From the IMG/VR virus record IMGVR_UViG_3300032116_000297, positions 1-51,222 of that record: 51,222 nt of DNA; one strand, written 5' to 3'. The translations under genes and the position numbers were made by a program. Under the pieces are notes generated by a model. That model saw nothing but the letters and a program-made list of their open reading frames with translations, was not told where the DNA came from and did no database searches. Origin of the DNA: a virus. Below are positions 20,906-36,183 of the stretch, piece by piece (the first letter of the stretch is position 1; the number at the start of each line of letters is the position of its first letter).

Positions 20906-21325
20906 ATGATTTCTTCAACTATACGATTTGAAAAATTAGAAGATATTGCTCTTTCTCTTTTAGATAATCACAATGCTAATCGTTGTAGACATTTTTCTTT
21001 TATTCTTTACAAGAACCGTTTAATATCCACAGGTCTTAATGTCAATAAAACACACCCTGTAAATCTTAGAAACAAAAAAATTTCTAGAATTACAGGAGAA
21101 GATTATTCTGATCAAAAACAAATTTGTTCTGAATTGAACGCTATCTTAAAATTAAAGAGACTAACGAATATTGATACACGTAAATGTACTTTAATTAATT
21201 TAAGATATGACCGAAACAATAAAATAGCTTTAGCCAAACCTTGTTCCTCTTGTCAATCTCTACTAAGATATCATAATTTTAAACAAGTTATTTGGTCTAC
21301 AAATAATGGATACCAGGTTAACTGA
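20906..21325 (+). CDS. Cytidine deaminase-fold protein
   Basis: 139 aa with a zinc-dependent deaminase signature: Cys74-x-Glu76 (ICSELNA) and Cys113-x2-Cys116 (KPCSSC). Having Cys rather than His as first zinc ligand is the arrangement of free-nucleoside cytidine deaminases rather than dCMP deaminases. It overlaps the next gene, a second deaminase with the His version. Both probably act in pyrimidine nucleotide supply, but the substrate of this one is uncertain and could also be a base in nucleic acid. Confidence 0.65.
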   Translation: MISSTIRFEKLEDIALSLLDNHNANRCRHFSFILYKNRLISTGLNVNKTHPVNLRNKKISRITGEDYSDQKQICSELNAILKLKRLTNIDTRKCTLINLRYDRNNKIALAKPCSSCQSLLRYHNFKQVIWSTNNGYQVN

Positions 21326-21722
21326 CATTTCATGGGAAGAATATGCTTTAAAGTTAGCTGAAGTAGCTTCTTTAAAATCTAAAGACCCCTTTATAAAAGT
21401 GGGGTGTTGTCTTCTTCGACATGATCACAGTGTTGCTTCTTTGGGGTTTAACGGATTTCCGTCTGGCATGGCAGAAAATTGGTCTGACCGCGATGAACGC
21501 AGAAAGTATGTAGTTCACTCTGAAACCAATTCTTTAAGATACGTAAAACCCAATGAATGTTATCTTGCAGCAGTAACATTACTTCCCTGTAATGATTGTT
21601 TAAAGTCTTTAGCTTCTTATGGTATTAAGAAAATAGTATACAAAGATATTTACCAACACGACCCTTCTACTATAAATCTAGCGGAAGTTTTCGGAATAGA
21701 ATTAATTCGTATTACTTCTTGA
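21306..21722 (+). CDS. dCMP deaminase
   Basis: 138 aa. The zinc and proton-transfer residues His71-x-Glu73 (VHSETNS) and Cys95-x2-Cys98 (LLPCNDC) follow an N-terminal segment DPFIKVGCCLL and GFNGFPSGM typical of deoxycytidylate deaminases. The reaction converts dCMP to dUMP, the substrate for thymidylate synthase; a ThyX gene is present at 48364, so the two can form a dTMP pathway. It overlaps the preceding deaminase gene by 20 nt and the convergent gene at 21712 by 11 nt. Confidence 0.82.
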   Translation: MDTRLTDISWEEYALKLAEVASLKSKDPFIKVGCCLLRHDHSVASLGFNGFPSGMAENWSDRDERRKYVVHSETNSLRYVKPNECYLAAVTLLPCNDCLKSLASYGIKKIVYKDIYQHDPSTINLAEVFGIELIRITS

Positions 21723-22645: not shown

Positions 22646-23031
22646 TTGTTCATAAATGAAGCTTTTTGATCAGCTGTCATTGGGTAAATTTTTTCGTTAA
22701 AGTATTTCCAAAATTCAACAGGATCTGGAGAGGTTTTAATGACAGAGACTACTTCTACGTCATTACAATTAATAGCTCTAAAATTTTGCATAAAAATATC
22801 ATAAACAATAACTAAATTTTTAGCTTTGGGGTCATAAGAAAGACCATAACCTTTTGGTGGGTCATAATTTAAAATTTCTCTTCCTAATTTAGACAATAAT
22901 AAATTACGATCATTGGTACAGAGCATTCGTCTGTAATCATTGAATCCTTGCTTATTAATTCTTCTACGAAATTTTAATTCGATTACATTTTGAAGAAGCA
23001 TTAAAGCCAATGCATCTCTTCCTAGTCTCAT
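22642..23031 (-). CDS. SH3-like beta-barrel phage protein
   Basis: 129 aa. The segment DYRRMLCTND, followed by NLVIVYDIFMQNFRAIN, resembles the uncharacterised small phage domain (DUF2693-type, annotated as SH3 beta-barrel) of which the gene at 39377 is a clearer example. It is a widespread conserved phage protein; the end (PVEFWKYFNEKIYPMTADQK) is helical. It overlaps both neighbours by 4 nt. Confidence 0.55.
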   Translation of the reverse strand: MRLGRDALALMLLQNVIELKFRRRINKQGFNDYRRMLCTNDRNLLLSKLGREILNYDPPKGYGLSYDPKAKNLVIVYDIFMQNFRAINCNDVEVVSVIKTSPDPVEFWKYFNEKIYPMTADQKASFMNK

Positions 23032-23393
23032 GCAACACTCTCTTTGACGTCACAAATACCAAAAATGCGATTTTCTGAAAGGAAGATGACCATACCTTCT
23101 TTTTGTCTAATAGCTTGAAGACCTCGATCCCCTGGAAAAAGAACTTTACAACCCTTTTTGACCTGCTTACAATTAGGCCCTGCTAATACCACTTCTCCTA
23201 CTCTCCATGCTCTATGATCAACGACTTGATTTGGTAAAATAATTCCATTCCTTTTAACACCACCATCAACTATGTCTAGATACTTGACCATAATTACATC
23301 ACCTAAAAGTTCAGTAATTTCATAATCCTCTGGAAGTGGAAGGTCTTTATAGTCTTCGGGTGTGATTCCGTTATTTTCTCTTGATAGATTCAT
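23028..23393 (-). CDS. GroES-like co-chaperonin
   Basis: 121 aa. The pattern GDVIMVKYLD...VKRNGIILP...RVGEVVLAGPN...VKKGCKVLFPGDRG matches the GroES beta-barrel with its mobile loop region near residues 45-60. T4 encodes a functional analogue, gp31, needed for gp23 folding with host GroEL, and GroES genes occur in phages of aquatic bacteria. The length is similar to gp31 (111 aa). It overlaps the gp62-like gene by 4 nt. Fold assignment is moderately sure; a dedicated role in capsid folding is inference. Confidence 0.62.
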   Translation of the reverse strand: MNLSRENNGITPEDYKDLPLPEDYEITELLGDVIMVKYLDIVDGGVKRNGIILPNQVVDHRAWRVGEVVLAGPNCKQVKKGCKVLFPGDRGLQAIRQKEGMVIFLSENRIFGICDVKESVA

Positions 23394-23755
23394 ATATTTG
23401 ATTTATTAATGGTTTCATTAAAATCAACCATTTGTTGAATTTCTTTTTGAGAAAGTTCCATTGTTTTAGCTAAGATAGAAATTTTATTATCTTGATCTTC
23501 TTTATCTATTTTAACTTTTTTAATGTAATTTATTTTCGACATATATTTCTGTTTAGGAAAACAAGATATTAAAAGTTTATAATGAATATCTTTATCTATA
23601 TTACCTAAAGAATTAACAGATTCATTTATAGCAAAACAAGAAGAAGGTGATAAGAAACTGAGCCATCTATTAATAAGAAAAGGGACATATCCTTCTAAAG
23701 ATAAGTCCCCTTTTTTGAAAGATACAATATCTTTGAGATAATCAAAGATTGTCAT
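23390..23755 (-). CDS. 62: Clamp-loader small subunit, gp62-like
   Basis: 121 aa. The N-terminal pattern FDYLKDIVSFKKGDL, then YVPFLINRWLSFLSPSSCFAIN is characteristic of gp62, the small subunit that with gp44 loads the sliding clamp gp45 onto DNA. It is shorter than T4 gp62 (187 aa), as in T4-like phages of aquatic hosts. It sits between the GroES-like and DUF366-like genes with 4-nt overlaps on both sides. The gp44 and gp45 genes are not in the window. Confidence 0.8.
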   Translation of the reverse strand: MTIFDYLKDIVSFKKGDLSLEGYVPFLINRWLSFLSPSSCFAINESVNSLGNIDKDIHYKLLISCFPKQKYMSKINYIKKVKIDKEDQDNKISILAKTMELSQKEIQQMVDFNETINKSNI

Positions 23756-24339
23756 ACAATGACTTTACGAGAAGCAATATGGATATCCATGGTCATGTTC
23801 TGAAAAAGATTTTCAGCTTCTTGCATGAACCTAAGAGCTTCTGTTTCTTCTAAATTAGTTGAATAAGCAAAAGAAGGAGCCTTATCGCCTGCTCGAATAT
23901 TGATGCCTGTATGAATTAAAGCGCAATTATTCTTTTGAGCTGCAATAGAAACTGAACATTTTTTATGCTCTTCTCCGTCTATAATCATAATATCATCACC
24001 ATCAACGTATCCACAATTTTTAATATATTGTGAACAAAGCAGAGATCCTAGTTGAGCATTAAAAAGTCGTTGAAAACAAATTGCAGCATACAAATCAATA
24101 TTAGGAATTTCAATAAGGAAATTTATTGCCATATCGGAATAAATGTAATCTTTACTCATAGAGTCTTCTAAATCAATGAGATTGTCTGTAACCTCCATAG
24201 GAGCAATAAAAGAAATAATATCCCCTGTAGGGGTTACGGCTTTCTTTAAAAATTTGTAACCGAAAGGTTGATGAAGAATCTTTCCACAATAATAATCAGA
24301 CCCTGAAGCTTCTTTTAGTTGTTGTCTTGTAATAATCAT
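23752..24339 (-). CDS. DUF366-like protein
   Basis: 195 aa. The stretch IAPMEVTDNLIDLEDSM, then INFLIEIPNIDLYAAICFQRLF and CSVSIAAQKNNCALIHTGINI agree with my recollection of the DUF366 family, found in bacteria, archaea and phages and of unknown function. It has a His/Asp/Glu content that could form an active site, but none is established. It lies in the same operon as queC and the amidotransferase, so a link to deazaguanine metabolism is possible but unproven. Confidence 0.65.
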   Translation of the reverse strand: MIITRQQLKEASGSDYYCGKILHQPFGYKFLKKAVTPTGDIISFIAPMEVTDNLIDLEDSMSKDYIYSDMAINFLIEIPNIDLYAAICFQRLFNAQLGSLLCSQYIKNCGYVDGDDIMIIDGEEHKKCSVSIAAQKNNCALIHTGINIRAGDKAPSFAYSTNLEETEALRFMQEAENLFQNMTMDIHIASRKVIV

Positions 24340-24357: not shown

Positions 24358-25035
24358 TTAGTTAGAATAAATCTCCTTAAATTTTTTATTAGACTCTTCC
24401 CATTCTGAAGTTAACATAGAATCACCCAACCCATAATGAAGAGCTTTAATAGGCAAAACACCAACAGTAACTCTTTTTTCATTGGCTCTTAAACAAAAAG
24501 ACATATCATAGTGATGCCATTCAAATTGTTCATCAAAGTAAAGTTCTTTATCAACTAAGTCTTTAATTTTACAAGCTATGAATAAACCATCGACTATCAA
24601 CGCTCTAGATTGTGTAGGACCAAATACAGTCGTCCACTTTTGATTGTCTTTAGAGTGAGCTACTTCTCCGACAAAATCTTCTCTTCCGTTGGAAGCTAAA
24701 TGCCAAGCCATCTTATCTGCTTTTTTATTAAAAGATTTGGTACCAGCCAATCCAGTAATAGAATAAGGACTATTGATTAATTTTTCATAAAGAAACAAAT
24801 CTTCTAAGACCACATCATCATGAACAAATAAAACAATTTTATCAAGATGTTTAGGATCTTTAAGAATTTCATTATAACATAATCCTAATCCTCTTTTATT
24901 GTCTTTAAAAAGATGGAAACTGATATCAGTATTACTTTCGTATTGTTTTTTTAAACTTAAAAAAATAGGTTTTTGTTCAAATTCTTTATCAGTTTTAGCT
25001 TGAGTGCAAGTAACTATTAATAGTTTGTTAATCAT
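24358..25035 (-). CDS. Glycosyltransferase family 2-like protein
   Basis: 225 aa with a GT-A fold layout: a beta-alpha start (KLLIVTC), RGLGLCYNEIL, then the metal/nucleotide-sugar site VLFVHDDVVLED (His72-Asp73-Asp74), and a downstream acceptor-side segment VDGLFIACK and WHHYDMSFCLRA. No membrane segment is visible. It overlaps the amidotransferase gene by 4 nt. The acceptor could be modified DNA, a small molecule or virion proteins; the Thr/Pro-rich surface proteins at 29455-36183 are a tempting but unproven acceptor. Confidence 0.72.
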   Translation of the reverse strand: MINKLLIVTCTQAKTDKEFEQKPIFLSLKKQYESNTDISFHLFKDNKRGLGLCYNEILKDPKHLDKIVLFVHDDVVLEDLFLYEKLINSPYSITGLAGTKSFNKKADKMAWHLASNGREDFVGEVAHSKDNQKWTTVFGPTQSRALIVDGLFIACKIKDLVDKELYFDEQFEWHHYDMSFCLRANEKRVTVGVLPIKALHYGLGDSMLTSEWEESNKKFKEIYSN

Positions 25036-25661
25036 AAAAGGAAATAAGGATTATTGTAAGGAAAAATTCCTATTTGTTTAAAATTTAAACCCGTAAATTC
25101 ATAAATGATACCGTCTTCTTCTATCTGTTGTGAACCTTTGAATGCAATAGAACTAAAAGAATCTTGATCCATATGTAGAGAAGAACCTGCTTTTACTAAA
25201 TAAAGTTTTTCTGTATCATATATCCAGGAAGTTAAAAGACCTTTATAATTTGAATAGGTTTTAATTATGTCTCCTTTGTTCATGGAAAGGTGGTAAGGTA
25301 TAATAGACGAATCTACTTCAAATTCTTTATGATTACTAAAGTCAGTAAAATTTTGTATAATACCATTATGTGCTACAAAATTAAACCCAAAATTAAAAGG
25401 ATGGGTGGTACAATAATCAAAAGAAAGATTTTTAGAATTGGTTGGAGCGCGAGAATGAAAAAGATAATATATCGGAAATTCTTCTAAAGACTTTAATTCC
25501 TTTTTTAAATTTTCCAAAGTAAATGGAGATTCTTGTTTAGAAAGGTAAAAATGATTCTGAGTGAATACCAAAACACCAGAAGCAAAAGATCCTCTTTCTA
25601 AACCATCTATATAAAGTTGATGAGCTTTCTCCAAAGAAGGAGCACCACTAATATTACACAT
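25032..25661 (-). CDS. Class-II glutamine amidotransferase domain protein
   Basis: 209 aa starting MCNISGAPS. The start at 25661 is chosen because class-II amidotransferases use the Cys right after the initiator Met as nucleophile; an upstream in-frame ATG inside queC (25727) would bury it. Further catalytic-site motifs are HSRAPT (Arg71) and HNG (Asn99-Gly100), close to the positions in GlmS and PurF. The gene starts 4 nt after queC ends. In some phages and archaea this domain is fused to QueC (Gat-QueC) and supplies ammonia for an amidine on the 7-deazaguanine ring; here it is a separate gene. Confidence 0.82.
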   Translation of the reverse strand: MCNISGAPSLEKAHQLYIDGLERGSFASGVLVFTQNHFYLSKQESPFTLENLKKELKSLEEFPIYYLFHSRAPTNSKNLSFDYCTTHPFNFGFNFVAHNGIIQNFTDFSNHKEFEVDSSIIPYHLSMNKGDIIKTYSNYKGLLTSWIYDTEKLYLVKAGSSLHMDQDSFSSIAFKGSQQIEEDGIIYEFTGLNFKQIGIFPYNNPYFLL

Positions 25662-25665
25662 AATT

Positions 25666-26391
25666 TTATATTGAAATACAATTAAATTTTTGCCACGGTA
25701 TTTCTTTTGAATATGAAAGTGGATCAATCTTTTTAGCTTCTATAAATCCCTGAAGACGAGCCGAACAAGCAGGACAGGTACCACAACTTAAATCTTTTCC
25801 TTCATAACAAGTCCAAGTTTTATCAAATTGAACACTCAATGAAATTCCATATTCAATTATTTCTTTCTTAGACATTTTAACTAAAGGAGCTTGAATCTGA
25901 ACCTTATGAAGTCTGTTAAAAGCCAAACACTCATTAAGGCTATTTCTAAATTGAGATGTACCATCCCAATGCCCACTAGTATCATCAACCAAAGCAGCAC
26001 CATAAAAAACATCAGAGCAATCATTAGCTTCTGCATAAGAGGCTGCAATAGATAACATAATCATATTGCGATTAGGCACATGAGCTTTATTTTGAGCTTC
26101 TCCTATAACCTCTTTCATTTGAGGAACATTAATGTCTTTATTAGTTAAGGCTGAAGTAGGAGCTAATTGAGAAAGAAATTTTAAATCAACCACCACATGT
26201 TGTTTGATAGAGTTGCCTTCTCCTACACCTAAATTAGTAGTGTATTCTAAAGCCTTATCAATTTCTTTACGATGTCTTTGATTATAATCGTAAGTTAAAC
26301 AATAAAGTTCTTCATATTCTTTTAAACAATGATGAAGAACTACAGTGGAATCCATTCCAGAACTAAAAATAACTACACACTTTTTACTCAT
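25666..26391 (-). CDS. queC: 7-cyano-7-deazaguanine synthase QueC
   Basis: 241 aa. It has the PP-loop SSGMDST (residues 10-16), VPNRNMIMLSIAASYAEA (105-122), and the C-terminal zinc site Cys195, Cys203, Cys206, Cys209 (CGTCPAC). QueC converts 7-carboxy-7-deazaguanine to preQ0 using ATP and ammonia. PreQ0 feeds tRNA queuosine or, in phages, DNA modifications that block restriction. It is the first gene of the minus-strand operon. FolE, QueD, QueE and the DNA transglycosylase DpdA are not in this window. Confidence 0.93.
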   Translation of the reverse strand: MSKKCVVIFSSGMDSTVVLHHCLKEYEELYCLTYDYNQRHRKEIDKALEYTTNLGVGEGNSIKQHVVVDLKFLSQLAPTSALTNKDINVPQMKEVIGEAQNKAHVPNRNMIMLSIAASYAEANDCSDVFYGAALVDDTSGHWDGTSQFRNSLNECLAFNRLHKVQIQAPLVKMSKKEIIEYGISLSVQFDKTWTCYEGKDLSCGTCPACSARLQGFIEAKKIDPLSYSKEIPWQKFNCISI

Positions 26392-29454: not shown

Positions 29455-31317
29455 ATGGCGGATCTTAAAATTTCAGAATTACCAGAATTAGTAATACCGC
29501 TCAATATCGATGTAATTCCTATAGCTTCAGAAAATACTACCAAAAAAATAACGGTAGATAATTTAATTCAAGCATTTGTTAAAGCAACTTCTGCAGACTG
29601 GGCAAATATTAATAATTTGTCTTTGCCTATAGAAATTCCCGTAAATGTTAGTAATAATGAGACTACAGTATTAACAACAGGCAATTCAAAGATTACTTTA
29701 CGATTACCCCAAGATATAACTCTTTTAGAGGTTAAAGCTAGTTTAACCACAGCAAGTTCGTCAGGCAATGTAATTGTTGACATTAATAAAAATGGATCAA
29801 CCGTTCTTTCTTCTAAAATTACAATAGAAGTTGGTGAGAAAACATCAAAAACAGCCACAACCTTACCTGTAATTTCAAACCCTTATTTAGAAAATGATGA
29901 TGAAATTACAATTGACGTAGACTCTGCTGGTAGTAATGCAACCGGCCTTAAAGTTTGGTTGATAGGAACAAGACAAATAATAGCATTACCGCCTATCACA
30001 CCTCCAATAAGCCCTACTCCGACTTCGACACCCCCAATAAGCTTTACTCCGACCCCTACACAGACTCCCACCCCAACAACGATACCTACTGCAATTTTCA
30101 CATTAGGACCTGGGGATTGGAATGGTTCTTATTACTATTCTGAAAACGGACCTCAACAAATAAGCATGTTTGCCACCGGATCAAACGATAGGGCTTATTT
30201 CTACAATTCTTGGGGTGGCATTTTAAGCTATACTAATACCCAAGTAGTTGTTAATGGTGTCGCTAGAGCTAGTATCTCGCACACCACAGACAGAATTGGT
30301 CAGCAATTTGGATATAGTATTTCGGGATCTTCTGTTCAAGCATTTGGTACATTAAACGGTGGTGTTGTTTATCTGACAATATCAGAACCAGGAGTGACTC
30401 CTACAGTAACACCAACAATTACTCAAACTCCATTTAATACTCCTAATTCCACTCCTACCAGAACTCCGACACAAACACCAACAGCCACTCCTACTAGAAC
30501 TCCGACACAAACACCGTCAATAACTCCTACTAGAACACCAACTCCAACACCAACTCCATCTGTAACACCAAACCCAGTTAGTGCGTTATTTGTTTTAGGA
30601 CCAGGGGATTGGAATGGTTCTTATTACTATTCTGAAAATGGATCTCAACAAATAAGCATGGTTACTACAGGTGTTGATGACAGGGCTTATTTTTATAATA
30701 ACTGGAGCGGTGGGTTAAGTTACACCAATACTCAAGTGGTTGTAAATGGAACACCAAGAGCTAGTATCTCCCACACCACAGACAGAATTGGTCAGCAATT
30801 TGCATTCAGTATTACAGGGTCTTCTGCTCAAGCATTTGGAACATTAAACGGTGGTGTTGTTTATCTGACAATATCAGAACCGGGAGTGACTCCTACAGTA
30901 ACACCAACAATCACTCAAACTCCAACAATATCTTTAACTCCTAGTGTCACACCAACAAAGTTTTCGACACCAACTCCAACACCCACAATCACCCCTTCTA
31001 TAACCCCAACTAATGTTACAGGTGCTACTTTTGTTTTAGGGCCTGGGGATTGGAATGGTTCTTATTACTATTCTGAAAATGGATCTCAACAAATAAGTAT
31101 GGTTGCAACTGGAGTTGATGATAAAATTTACCTATACAACAACTGGGGTGGTGGATTAAGTTACACCAATACTCAAGTGGTTGTAAATGGAACACCAAGA
31201 GCTAGTATCTCGCACACCACAGACAGAATTGGTCAGCAATTTGGATATAGTATTACAGGATCCATTGCACAAACTACAGGAACATTAAACGGTGGTGTTG
31301 TTAACTTGACAATATAA
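29455..31317 (+). CDS. Surface/fibre protein with three 97-residue repeats and Thr/Pro linkers
   Basis: 620 aa. The N-terminus (MADLKISELPEL) is a common start of phage fibre and structural proteins, followed by a beta-rich domain to about residue 175. Three near-identical 97-residue modules, each opening with FxLGPGDWNGSYYYSENG and ending GTLNGGVV(Y/N)LTI, lie at 30091-30381, 30583-30873 and 31024-31314. They are joined by Thr/Pro-rich linkers of 50-65 residues. The pattern is that of an exposed multi-domain adhesin or decoration protein with stiff, possibly glycosylated stalks. Ligand and location unknown. Confidence 0.72.
   Translation: MADLKISELPELVIPLNIDVIPIASENTTKKITVDNLIQAFVKATSADWANINNLSLPIEIPVNVSNNETTVLTTGNSKITLRLPQDITLLEVKASLTTASSSGNVIVDINKNGSTVLSSKITIEVGEKTSKTATTLPVISNPYLENDDEITIDVDSAGSNATGLKVWLIGTRQIIALPPITPPISPTPTSTPPISFTPTPTQTPTPTTIPTAIFTLGPGDWNGSYYYSENGPQQISMFATGSNDRAYFYNSWGGILSYTNTQVVVNGVARASISHTTDRIGQQFGYSISGSSVQAFGTLNGGVVYLTISEPGVTPTVTPTITQTPFNTPNSTPTRTPTQTPTATPTRTPTQTPSITPTRTPTPTPTPSVTPNPVSALFVLGPGDWNGSYYYSENGSQQISMVTTGVDDRAYFYNNWSGGLSYTNTQVVVNGTPRASISHTTDRIGQQFAFSITGSSAQAFGTLNGGVVYLTISEPGVTPTVTPTITQTPTISLTPSVTPTKFSTPTPTPTITPSITPTNVTGATFVLGPGDWNGSYYYSENGSQQISMVATGVDDKIYLYNNWGGGLSYTNTQVVVNGTPRASISHTTDRIGQQFGYSITGSIAQTTGTLNGGVVNLTI
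30091..31314 (+). repeat. Three 291-bp protein-module repeats
   Basis: Units at 30091-30381, 30583-30873 and 31024-31314, all exactly 291 bp and in frame. Long stretches are identical at DNA level, so the duplication is recent or maintained by gene conversion. Confidence 0.85.
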
Positions 31318-31335
31318 CTATATGTTAAAAAATTT

Positions 31336-31343
31336 AATAAATA
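31336..31343 (+). promoter_or_regulatory. Late promoter motif AATAAATA
   Basis: AATAAATA ends 10 nt before the ATG at 31354. Confidence 0.5.
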
Positions 31344-31353
31344 AAACAGTACT

Positions 31354-32916
31354 ATGAATATTTACGGCAACCCAACAACAGGCATTTTTAATATAGTCGA
31401 ATTTTTTAATAGTACCCCTGTTAATGTAAATACTTACTATTCTAGTTTGTGTTCAGTACAGCAACCCTCTAACAGTCGACAAGTGTTGTGGGTAGTTAAA
31501 CCAAATGACTTCATTCCTGCTTTTACTCAATTTATTCCTGGTTCTGGATATATTATACAAGCTAAAGAAAATTTTGTTATACCTGAAGACAGTGAAGCTC
31601 CTGGAGTTTTTTCTTTAACATTGCCAGGTTCACCAAGTACTGGTCTATTTTCTATTTTTGAATATCCCTTTGATGCCCCTGTTAATGTAAATACTTACTA
31701 TTCTAGTTTGTGTTCAGTGCAACAAACGTCCAATAGTGGACAAGTATTATGGGTTGTGAAACCTGGAGATTTCATTCCAGCATTCACCCAATTCACCCCA
31801 GGTTCTGGATATGTTGTTCAAGTTAAAGAAAATTTTACAATTGTAGGAAATCCTGTTACTCCTACTCCCACCCCAACAGTAACACCTACAATTACTCCTA
31901 CCCCGACAGTAACACCTACAATTACTCTTACCCCAGAAGTAACACCTACAATTACTCCGACTAATACTGTAACTCCGAGTATCACTCCGACTAATACAAT
32001 AACTCCGAGTATCACTCCGACTAATACAGTAACTCCGAGTATCACTCCGACAATAACTCCAACTGAATCTGAGACTCCTACCCCAACTCCAACAGAGACG
32101 CAAACTCCAACCCCAACAGTTACACCAACAGTAACAGAAACACAAGGTAATACTCCAACTCCTACAAGAACACCTACCTCTACTCCTTTACCTGATCCTG
32201 GAGTTGAATCCTTTGCTATCCAAGTTGATACCTTTGTAACAGCTACTCCAACTCCAACAAGAACCCCTACTCCTACTAGGACACCAACAAAGACTCCTAC
32301 CCCTACCAGAACCCCTACTAGGACTCCAACTAATACAGTAACACCAAGTATTACTCCGACTAATACTGTAACACCAAGTATTACTCCAACTAATACAGTA
32401 ACACCAAGTATTACTCCAACTATATCTTTAACTCCTAGTAACACTCCAACAGTAACTCAAACACCTAGTATTACACCTACTAATACAGTTACAGTAACTC
32501 CAACAATAACTCCAACAGTTACTCTAACACCAAGTATTACTCCAACACCAAGTATTACTCCAACTATAACAGGTACACCTTCAGTAACTTTTGATACCAC
32601 TGTAACACTTCCAGCTACTTCGCCTAACACAGCGACTGGTCCTGGTGCTTTAGGTATAACAATTTTAGGATCTCCTTCTTCACTAACAGGTTCACTCTCT
32701 TATAATACAAGAACGGGTGTACCACAACCAACACCAGAAACGATATTCTTACGCACAGCTGGGGCTAATAGAATTAAGTGTACTTTAGATCCTTCTTATT
32801 CAAACAACAATACAATATTCTCTGTAACTATTAGCGGCACAACTTACTCAACCAAAAACTTCGGACAAAAGGTAGATTACGGTAATGGTACATATTATAT
32901 AGATGTTGATTTATAA
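31354..32916 (+). CDS. Thr/Pro mucin-like surface protein
   Basis: 520 aa. Two N-terminal modules of about 85 residues share [14 protein letters not shown], [18 protein letters not shown] and PGSGY; a stretch of over 40 bp is identical in the DNA (31416-31458 and 31676-31718). A Thr/Pro repeat stalk (residues about 170-405, TPTITPT units) follows, interrupted by an 18-residue cassette [18 protein letters not shown] at 32188-32241. The last 110 residues form a separate beta-rich domain. No signal peptide is present, so export would be as part of the virion. Probably a fibre or adhesin; function inferred. Confidence 0.68.
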
Positions 32917-32922
32917 TTTATT

Positions 32923-35900
32923 ATGCCACTTATTACCTATACACCACAACATTTAGAATATTATGGTCCTACAATAGACATATCAAATTCTCCAGGCATA
33001 AATGAGTTAAATTTAATTTATCGCCTTAACAAAACTGGTGATCAAAATACAATTACATATACACAGTTTGGTTCATGGTTAGCTTCTGATCCTGATTTTT
33101 CTGACTTTACCACCTTAGATAGTGGGGGTCAATATATTTTAATAAGCAAAGACGGCGCTGTTATGCCGTACACTATTCATAACGAAACAGAATCTCTTCC
33201 CATATCGGCAACTATTAACAGAGGTGTTCAACTTTTAAGATACGAAAAAAACACCCCAACAAATATTTCAACCTTTTCTGACATACAAATTGTTTATTTG
33301 TTTTCAAAAAAACTCACTGACAACTATGCAGTCATTACATCTTTTATTGCTACAGATCCGGACTTTTCTGATTTTACTCAATTTGAATATGGCAAAACTT
33401 ATTTAATTATAAGTAATACACAAATTCCGTCATACGAAATAGAAAGAAGGGAAATTAATCCAACTCCTACCCCAACTTCATCAGTAACACCCACAATTAC
33501 CCCTACTACATCTTTAACTCCTACCATATCTTTAACTCCTAGTATCACTCCGACAATAACTTCAACAGAGTCTCCTACTCCAACTCCTACTGTAACATCG
33601 ACAGTTACACCTAGTATCACTCCGACAATAACTCCAACAGAATCTGAGACTCCTACTCCAACTCCAACTGAGTCTGTTACACCTACCCCAACAGTTACAC
33701 CAACAGTAACAGAGACACAAGGCAATACCCCAACTCCAACAGCAACTCCTACCTCTACTCCTTTACCTGATCCTGGGGTTCAGTCCTTTGCTATCCAGGT
33801 TGATACTTTTGTAACTCAAACACCAACTCCAACAAAGACTCCTACTCCAACAAGGACTCCAACAAAGACTCCTACCCCTACTAGGACTCCAAGCAGGACT
33901 CCCACTATATCTTTAACTCCTAGCAACACTCCTACTATATCTTTAACTCCCAGTATAACCCCAACAGAGTCTCTCACCCCAAGTATTACTCCCACCAATA
34001 CAGAAACACCAACTAATACACCAACACCTACCGTAACTCAAACCCCTAGTGTTACTCCAACTAATACTGTAACACCAACAGAATCTCCAACTCCAACTCC
34101 AACTGAGTCTGAAACCCCAACTCCGACACCCACAGAATCTCTTACTCCAACTCCAACAGTTACACCAACAGTAACACCAACTCCAACTCCAACTGAGTCT
34201 GAAACCCCAACTCCGACACCCACAGAATCTCTTACTCCGACTCCAACAGTTACACCAACAGTAACAGAAACACAAGGTAATACTCCCACACCCACAGAAT
34301 CTCTTACTCCAACTCCAACCCCGACAGAGTCTGAAACCCCAACTCCAACTCCAACAGAATCTCTTACTCCAACTCCTACTGTAACACCGAGTATTACTCC
34401 TACTAATACTGTAACATCAACAGTTACACCTAGTATCACCCCCACAATAACTCCAACTGAGTCTGAGACTCCTACTCCAACTCCAACAGAATCTGAGACT
34501 CCTACTCCAACTCCAACAGAATCTGAGACTCCTACTCCAACTCCAACTGAATCTGTTACTCCAACTCCTACAGTCACTCCGACAGTAACAGAGACTCAGG
34601 GCAATACTCCAACTCCTACAAGAACCCCTACTTCTACTCCTTTACCTGATCCCGGTGTTCAATCTTTTGCTATTCAAGTTGATACCTTTGTAACTCAAAC
34701 GCCGACTCCAACCAGGACTCCTACCCCAACCAGGACCCCAACAAAAACACCAACTCCTACCAGGACTCCAAGTAGAACTCCCACCATATCTTTAACTCCT
34801 AGTAACACCCCGACTATATCTTTAACTCCTAGTATTACTCCCACTAATACTTTAACACCAACAGAGTCACCAACTCCAACAGTAACTCCGACTGTAACGA
34901 AAACCCCCGGTATTACCCCAACTAATACGGTCACTCCTACAGAGTCTGTTACACCAACACCAACAGTAACACCAACCAATACAATTACTCCTACAGAGTC
35001 TGTTACTCCAACACCAACTAATACAGTTACTCCTACAGAATCTGTTACACCAACACCAACAGTAACACCGACTGAGTCTGTTACCCCTACACCCACAGTA
35101 ACTCCGACTAATACAGTAACACCGACTGAGTCTGTTACCCCTACACCCACAGTAACTCCGACTAATACAGTAACACCGACTGAGTCTGTTACCCCTACAC
35201 CCACAGTAACACCAACCAATACAATTACCCCTACAGAATCTGTTACTCCAACACCCACAGTAACTCCAACCAATACAATTACTCCTACAGAATCTGTTAC
35301 TCCAACACCCACAGTAACTCCAACCAATACAATTACTCCTACAGAGTCTGTTACTCCAAGTATTACTCCTACCAATACAGTCACACCAAGTAATACTAAT
35401 ACTCCCGGATTATCTCCTACACCTACTCCGAGTAACACTCCTACTATATCTTTAACTCCTAGTATAACCCCGACAGAGTCTCTTACACCAACTCCAACAG
35501 CCACTCCTACAGAATCTGTTACACCAACTAATACAGTAACACCAACAGTAACACCAACCAATACAATTACTCCTACAGAGTCTGTTACCCCTACACCAAC
35601 AGTAACACCAACCAATACAATTACTCCTACAGAGTCTGTTACACCAACTAATACAGTTACTCCTACAGAGTCTGTTACCCCTACACCCACAGTAACACCG
35701 ACTGAGTCTGTTACCCCTACACCAACACTAACACCGACTAATACAGTAACACCGACTGAGTCTGTTACCCCTACACCCACAGTAACTCCGACTAATACAA
35801 TTACCCCTACAGAATCTGTTACTCCAACACCCACAGTAACACCAACCAATACAATTACCCCTACAGAATCTGTTACTCCAACACCCACAGTAACTCCAAC

Positions 35901-36183
35901 AGTAACTCCCACAGAGTCTGAGACCCCAACCCCAACCCCAACAGTAACATCAACAATAACTCCAACAGAATCTCTTACTCCTACACCAACAGTAACACCA
36001 ACAGTAACTCCTTTACCTGATCCTGGAGTTGAATCCTTTGCTATCCAAGTTGATACCTTTGTAACTCAAACGCCAACCACAACAAGGACTCCTACTCCAA
36101 CAAGGACCCAGACAAAGACTCCAACCCCTACTAGGACTCCTACTAGGACTCCTACTAGAACTCCAACTCCCTCCAGACCTTAA
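32923..36183 (+). CDS. Giant Thr/Pro mucin-like surface protein
   Basis: 1086 aa. An N-terminal part of about 180 residues has two degenerate modules ([40 protein letters not shown]) related in pattern to those of the preceding protein. The remaining 900 residues are almost wholly Thr/Pro/Ser/Glu repeats such as [16 protein letters not shown]. The cassette [18 protein letters not shown] occurs three times (33763-33816, 34642-34695, 36013-36066), each followed by basic TPTRTPT units. It starts 6 nt after the previous gene. It probably forms a long extended stalk. Antisense frames through it are artefacts of the repeat. Confidence 0.68.
34915..35910 (+). repeat. 54-bp tandem repeat array (Thr/Pro stalk)
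   Basis: An 18-codon unit ([18 protein letters not shown]) is repeated many times with mostly synonymous differences. Two adjacent copies at 35101-35154 and 35155-35208 are identical in DNA. Copy number is likely to vary by recombination, and short-read assembly here may be unreliable. Confidence 0.8.

Follow-up and report, generated by a model that had tools for sequence, protein, structure and literature searches.

Separate QueC and glutamine amidotransferase genes of a T4-like phage: a probable two-subunit preQ0 synthase for 7-deazaguanine DNA modification

Among the closest known counterparts of the genes reported here is Gat-QueC of Enterobacteria phage 9g and the Crenarchaeota, a fusion of a class II glutamine amidotransferase (Gat) with the PP-loop synthetase QueC, which works in a 7-deazaguanine pathway with FolE, QueD, QueE and DpdA. 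Together with DpdA, the 9g protein yields the deoxynucleoside of archaeosine (dG+) in the DNA of E. coli; its level is in the tens of thousands per million (PMC6884629). In this study, we analysed a 51,222-b virus fragment of IMG/VR (IMGVR_UViG_3300032116_000297; the entire public record, hereafter the window), in which QueC and Gat are separate proteins and their order is the opposite one, QueC first. The window comes from a T4-like phage, and a gp20 portal profile matched in it at 1.7e-98. A split pair is shared with KVP40, nt-1, 6E35.1a and pf16. We put at roughly 60% the probability that QueC and Gat are the two subunits of a glutamine-dependent synthase of 7-cyano-7-deazaguanine (preQ0) in a phage 7-deazaguanine DNA-modification pathway, to which the neighbouring DUF366 gene probably contributes a further enzyme and the neighbouring glycosyltransferase (GT) gene probably does not. 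The features of the pair are as follows.

25666..26391, minus strand: queC, a variant, Gat-linked 7-cyano-7-deazaguanine synthase of 241 aa (TIGR00364, Pfam QueC)
26347..26364, minus strand: PP-loop SSGMDS, QueC residues 10-15 (alignment)
25960..25971, minus strand: HWDG replacing the canonical pocket motif YPDC, QueC residues 141-144 (alignment; canonical form from PMC13329287)
25765..25809, minus strand: zinc-site cysteines C195, C203, C206 and C209 of QueC (alignment)
25032..25661, minus strand: gat, a stand-alone class II glutamine amidotransferase of 209 aa with a Met-Cys start (aligned catalytic columns, invariant residues, tree)
25656..25658, minus strand: codon for the N-terminal catalytic Cys2 of Gat (sequence)

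The two genes are separate open reading frames (ORFs), with 4 nt (positions 25662-25665) between the queC stop and the gat ATG (25661). QueC of the window scored 180.1 bits against the NCBIfam equivalog TIGR00364 (cut-off 150.3) and 5.6e-58 against Pfam QueC, and it is 83-93% identical to four relatives. Canonical QueC (PF06508 cluster 1) is characterized by the motifs SGGxDS, YxQxHxxE, VPxRN and YPDC and by four zinc cysteines (PMC13329287). Alignment bore out the PP-loop and the Cys4 zinc site that the original prediction had called intact, the PP-loop reading SSGMDS, with one G of SGGxDS changed to S; YNQRHRKE, VPNRN and Cys195/203/206/209 are also kept. The fourth motif is not: HWDG stands in place of YPDC, a change that the original prediction had overlooked.

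All available QueCs, deduplicated by sequence, were then sorted by this motif and by partner, Gat being scored as a partner within 4 kb. The proline position of YPDC was W in 69, H in three, F in one and Y in one of the 74 Gat-linked QueCs and proline in none, whereas all 31 proline-type QueCs were without Gat within 4 kb. The contrast is clean, although its Fisher's p of 1e-17 is overstated, the sequences being related; eight W-type QueCs had no Gat in reach, several of them on short pieces. The fused Gat-QueCs of 9g and P09 show a third state, YPDN, in contrast to the HWDG or YWD of the split pairs, the latter being the form in KVP40, nt-1, 6E35.1a and pf16. In some distant Gat-linked or W-type QueCs (L045, L052-L056, L059-L064) the zinc cysteines are gone and YWD is kept.

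Gat aligned with GlmS, PurF and AsnB in its Cys2, Asn99, Gly100 and Asp117 columns. The five closest sequences all keep its Cys2, Arg71, Asn99 and Gly100, as expected from the earlier proposal of a class II amidotransferase with Cys2, Arg71 and Asn99-Gly100 lying 4 nt after queC; Arg71 is present throughout the window group and is Gln in KVP40 and more distant members. PHROG and NCBIfam class II amidotransferases were matched at 1e-7 to 1e-4, and searches of Pfam and of the PDB sequences gave no match to Gat. A tblastn search of 50,697 phages with the window Gat was also empty, which reflects distance, as the Gat of KVP40 was reached only through profiles. Relatives at 78-88% identity conserve gene order, reading frame and catalytic residues alike, which excludes a chance origin of the pair.

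Dozens of viral contigs keep the pair. The order QueC-Gat-GT-DUF366 recurs in about 30 distinct ones, while more distant contigs keep QueC, Gat and usually the GT without DUF366, sometimes a few kb apart. QueC and Gat were separate in all relatives examined. Gat lies directly after QueC in KVP40, nt-1, 6E35.1a, Vibrio 2.275, pf16 and others (51 records), and in these cultured phages it is annotated as hypothetical or, at most, as 'nucleophile aminohydrolase'. KVP40, nt-1 and pf16 differ from the window in having no DUF366; gp31 follows QueC-Gat also in KVP40 and nt-1. We conclude that the split pair is an old and widespread one. Databases already contain its sequences, but no description of it was found in the literature searched. 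In one 221-kb phage contig, gat and the GT gene are separated by a gene resembling nucleoside 2-deoxyribosyltransferases (PF15891, 3e-32; L055:12587-13072).

As the window is the whole record, pathway genes elsewhere in the genome could be addressed only through relatives. Five relatives are larger than 120 kb, four of them with Gat; QueD was found in four of the five, QueE in four, QueF in four, FolE in two, and a gene for a candidate base-inserting enzyme, here called the insertase, in all five. In eleven loci folE, a DpdA-like gene, queF, queC, gat and queE and/or queD all lie within 17 kb, and several loci have one run of queE, queD, folE, insertase, a formyltransferase-type gene, a thymidylate-kinase-like gene, queF, queC and gat. 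QueF stands directly before QueC-Gat in most clusters. The relatives thus carry QueD, QueE, FolE, QueF and an insertase of predicted tRNA-guanine transglycosylase (TGT)/DpdA fold beside the same split pair, and at the level of gene content the 7-deazaguanine modification pathway put forward in the original prediction is well supported by them.

The insertase is an unannotated 303-aa protein that was spotted by inspecting the replication operon of one relative (L122:4081-4989). Its invariant motifs are D-x-S-x-FE, PDV, GVVQGK and DTS-x-P. A PDB sequence search with it gave no match; when its AlphaFold2 model (predicted local distance difference test score, pLDDT, 81) was submitted to Foldseek, the top 24 rows were tRNA-guanine transglycosylases, with DpdA (7ui4) at rank 13, and VIA-align gave Z 17 with the TGT fold over 223-231 residues. 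The modelled fold and the active-site motifs are those of a TGT/DpdA-type enzyme. Searches of 20 relatives with the PHROG DpdA profile (phrog_887) and with KVP40.0122, the protein at the DpdA2 position, gave no match, and neither did the controls, so these searches show no absence of DpdA. The insertase family occurs in more than 560 viral contigs and is labelled DpdA in Flavobacterium phage immuto; of its 80 best loci, 17 have a split QueC and Gat nearby. By comparison, nt-1 and 6E35.1a differ in having DpdA2-type proteins instead of this family.

Two further proteins are conserved between the insertase and QueF, one of the Formyl_trans_N family and one a P-loop protein resembling thymidylate kinase (L137:950-1489 and 393-953; L138; L139; L219; L241:16942-17996). 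It is possible that they tailor preQ1, the aminomethyl product of QueF. Formyl-preQ1 has been reported in phages. In phages with both QueF and the formyltransferase gene, preQ1 or formylated preQ1 is a plausible final base; neither gene was seen in the phage of the window.

Measured bases of two split-pair phages bear on what the pair produces. In 6E35.1a, whose gene order is queD-folE-DpdA2-queF-queC-gat, 15% of the dG carries a modification whose mass agrees with the deoxynucleoside of preQ1 (dPreQ1) (PMC12028318). The cluster of nt-1 has the split pair without QueF, and its DNA contains, per million nucleotides, 232 of the deoxynucleoside of preQ0 (dPreQ0), 72 of that of 7-amido-7-deazaguanine (dADG) and 44 dG+; nt-1 is also credited with an ArcS homologue (PMC6884629). 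Taking these data together with the recurrent QueF neighbour and the contrast with 9g, the split pair appears to make preQ0 and not mainly G+. The original prediction had instead assigned the amidine reaction of Gat-QueC to the split pair, so that QueC and Gat would add ammonia to preQ0 and form G+ as an archaeosine-type synthase. The dG+ made by the 9g enzymes and the trace of dG+ in nt-1 fit that proposal, as does an A-(E)-P-T motif that both Gat groups have close to the active site, but dPreQ1 in a phage that has the split pair and QueF, a fivefold excess of dPreQ0 over dG+ in nt-1, the usual position of QueF, a competitor for preQ0, directly before the pair, and a YWD pocket where the fused enzymes have YPDN all speak against it.

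In the trees, the split QueCs formed one group (93/93), which also took in a W-type QueC for which no Gat is known. The split Gats, ranging from that of the window to that of KVP40, formed another (95/95), indicating that QueC and Gat were inherited together. Split and fused QueC parts were separated at 100/100; forcing them together cost 16.6 log units, although the approximately unbiased (AU) test did not reject the joined tree (p = 0.134). The best Gat tree placed split and fused Gats together, but weakly (79/37). The separation of the QueC parts does not favour a recent fission of Gat-QueC as the source of the split pair, without formally rejecting it, and neither tree joined split and fused forms with good support. 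Overall, we consider an archaeosine-type synthase unlikely here.

The altered pocket would also be compatible with a QueC that, fed by Gat, halts at the amide (7-amido-7-deazaguanine), or with one that links a deazaguanine to a partner protein in the manner of Cap9/QatC. The motif is altered in every Gat-linked QueC, and QueC relatives of anti-phage systems have been repurposed for protein conjugation (PMC13329287). The insertase family, too, offers some support: homologues annotated as hypothetical occur in the Campylobacter firehammerviruses CP20 (L240:9001-9777), CP220, CPt10 and CP21, and Campylobacter phages are reported to be highly modified by dADG (PMC6884629). However, the QueC of firehammerviruses is of the canonical FPDC type with no Gat annotated nearby, no CD-NTase or Qat genes were noticed near the split pair, and the dPreQ1 of 6E35.1a requires preQ0. 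An amide-forming or conjugating QueC is, on balance, improbable.

If the pair is a two-subunit preQ0 synthase, Gat would hydrolyse glutamine at its N-terminal cysteine and probably pass the ammonia to QueC, which would activate 7-carboxy-7-deazaguanine with ATP and convert it through the amide to preQ0. In related phages, QueF would reduce preQ0 to preQ1, and the enzyme of predicted TGT/DpdA fold would exchange preQ1 into DNA, concealing the DNA from restriction; the phage of the window presumably has the remaining pathway genes, and DUF366 would probably contribute one more enzyme to it. The same division of labour is known from asparagine synthetase B, where class II amidotransferase and PP-loop synthetase are joined. 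The window pair would work by analogy with this and other amidotransferase-PP-loop enzymes, in which a glutaminase module feeds ammonia to an ATP-pyrophosphatase, but it is not a member of that group, having another substrate and separate chains.

Several points weigh against the two-subunit preQ0 synthase and its pathway. FolE, QueD, QueE, QueF and the insertase are all missing from the 51-kb window and were not seen in its closest relatives, which are contigs of up to 68 kb; of the five large relatives, three yielded no FolE and one no QueF. Because HWDG alters the tyrosine of YPDC, which is essential in E. coli QueC (Y131A is inactive; PMC13329287), the canonical output preQ0 cannot simply be assumed. 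The measured bases come from phages outside the window's own group (6E35.1a and nt-1), and the trace dG+ of nt-1 means that weak amidine formation is possible. As for DUF366, its link to the pathway at the genome level is based on few, related genomes.

The minus-strand gene order continues from queC and gat with the GT, DUF366, gp62-like and gp31-like genes:

24358..25035, minus strand: small glycosyltransferase of the PF13712 type (Pfam, 6e-8), a neighbour probably outside the pathway
23752..24339, minus strand: DUF366 protein with predicted biotin/lipoate-ligase fold (PF04017, 2.4e-22; model matches 2ddz; genome context)
23390..23755, minus strand: clamp-loader small subunit, gp62-like, a positional anchor of the T4-like locus (phrog_225, 2.8e-10; adjoins DUF366/GT in relatives)
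23028..23393, minus strand: gp31/Cpn10-like co-chaperone, a positional anchor (PF00166, E 4e-4, slightly below cut-off)

It had been suggested that both the GT and DUF366 act on the product of the pair. For the GT this was not upheld, and we dropped it as a pathway step: 49 of 77 GT loci had no Gat nearby, and QueC was present in none of seven large GT-found contigs without the full module. Many phages that have no QueC-Gat carry a member of the GT family at this gp62-gp31 site, so it appears to be a resident of the locus and not a pathway gene. These observations also bear on whether Gat is unrelated to QueC and is instead a sugar or other amidotransferase that partners the adjacent GT. The GT does come after Gat in the window group, a module-only Gat profile gave GlmS higher scores (45-55 bits) than fused Gat-QueC (29-37 bits), and a tree joining the split Gats to GlmS, the phylogenetic result named beforehand as one that would tell against a Gat-QueC origin, was not rejected (AU p = 0.146). 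The profile ranking was not used as evidence of kinship, one profile against long divergent domains being a poor guide. Gat follows QueC directly, with no such GT adjacent, in KVP40, nt-1, pf16, 6E35.1a and the full pathway clusters, the GT is widespread without Gat, the QueC motif is altered only in lineages with Gat, and Gat is accompanied by no isomerase or other synthase domain, its 209 aa leaving no room for an isomerase domain. We therefore regard a sugar amidotransferase as very unlikely. A reverse-strand gene resembling a GIY-YIG homing endonuclease lies between the GT and DUF366 genes in two close relatives (L003:4094-4978, L006:9295-10185). In Xanthomonas phage PhiXhv-15 (L149:5173-8407), a fused Gat-QueC precedes genes for a PIG-L-type deacetylase and a glycosyltransferase, which suggests a sugar linked to the 7-deazaguanine pathway in another phage.

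The suggestion fared better for DUF366, which is tied to pathway genes. The window protein scored 79.8 bits against PF04017 (cut-off 29.9), and its model (pLDDT 89) matched best 2ddz, the DUF366 protein of Pyrococcus horikoshii, followed by biotin and lipoate protein ligases. The archaeal protein has the same family and fold; here, DUF366 is tied to 7-deazaguanine genes. Eight large contigs were picked by DUF366 alone, seven of them without QueC near DUF366. QueC was present in seven of the eight and the insertase in six, and each of the eight had at least one of them, compared with none of the seven GT-found contigs (p = 1.6e-4 before allowing for kinship), one of which gave a weak insertase match (9.5e-23). 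In three of those seven, the gene beside the GT is a divergent DUF366 relative. In an alignment of divergent homologues from loci without QueC, most of the residues that the intact family conserves have been lost.

In bacteria, DUF366 lies directly after queC in four metagenome-assembled genomes (MAGs) labelled as cyanobacterial-type (Gastranaerophilales and similar) and Heliobacteriaceae (L438:4447-5522; L439:4306-5522; L440:4346-5522; L441:4226-5468), QueC being Pfam-confirmed in two and read by eye in two. An Armatimonadota MAG has the order queD-queC-DUF366-queE (L442:3711-6259; QueD by Pfam, QueC and QueE by motifs). The QueCs of L438 and L442 have FPDN in place of YPDC. The association is not universal: Microcystis phage MaAM05 encodes DUF366 but lacks QueC, a gammaproteobacterial contig has no 7-deazaguanine gene adjoining DUF366, and many pathway phages are without DUF366. 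From the predicted biotin/lipoate-ligase fold, the tracking of QueC/DpdA in phages and the adjoining queC/queD in bacteria, DUF366 is probably a further enzyme of the 7-deazaguanine pathway. No mention of COG2029/PF04017 was found in the literature searched. That it performs a ligase-type step on a deazaguanine is a guess from the model; within this reading it might, for example, adenylate 7-carboxy-7-deazaguanine or acylate preQ1. Tentatively, and at a little less than even odds, we propose that DUF366, a family with a structure since 2007, is a ligase-fold 7-deazaguanine enzyme of bacteria and phages that acts on carboxy-, amido- or aminomethyl-deazaguanine; in the phages it would act alongside the two-subunit QueC, which draws on glutamine and has a rebuilt substrate pocket.

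Elsewhere in the window, two adjacent, overlapping genes encode proteins of the dCMP/cytidine deaminase fold (20906-21722), only the second scoring above the Pfam cut-off. Directly after the gp20-like portal gene, three successive ORFs (29455-36183) contain long Thr-Pro-rich repeats (PTPT/TPTITP).

In summary, three new leads from this locus are the strongest: the motif of Gat-linked QueC, the insertase family, which has no name as yet, and DUF366. A single motif residue separates Gat-linked QueC from other QueCs. The unlabelled gene after queC in KVP40, nt-1, 6E35.1a and pf16 gains a name and a testable role, and DUF366 gains a first functional setting, one that lends itself to easy testing. 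Firehammerviruses are discussed in the literature as dADG-modified without DpdA, and the TGT-fold family is a candidate for their dADG insertion enzyme. 7-Deazaguanines conceal phage DNA, and gene content serves to predict which base a phage carries; as the best studied split phage was measured as dPreQ1, a rule that Gat means dG+ would mispredict the split phages.

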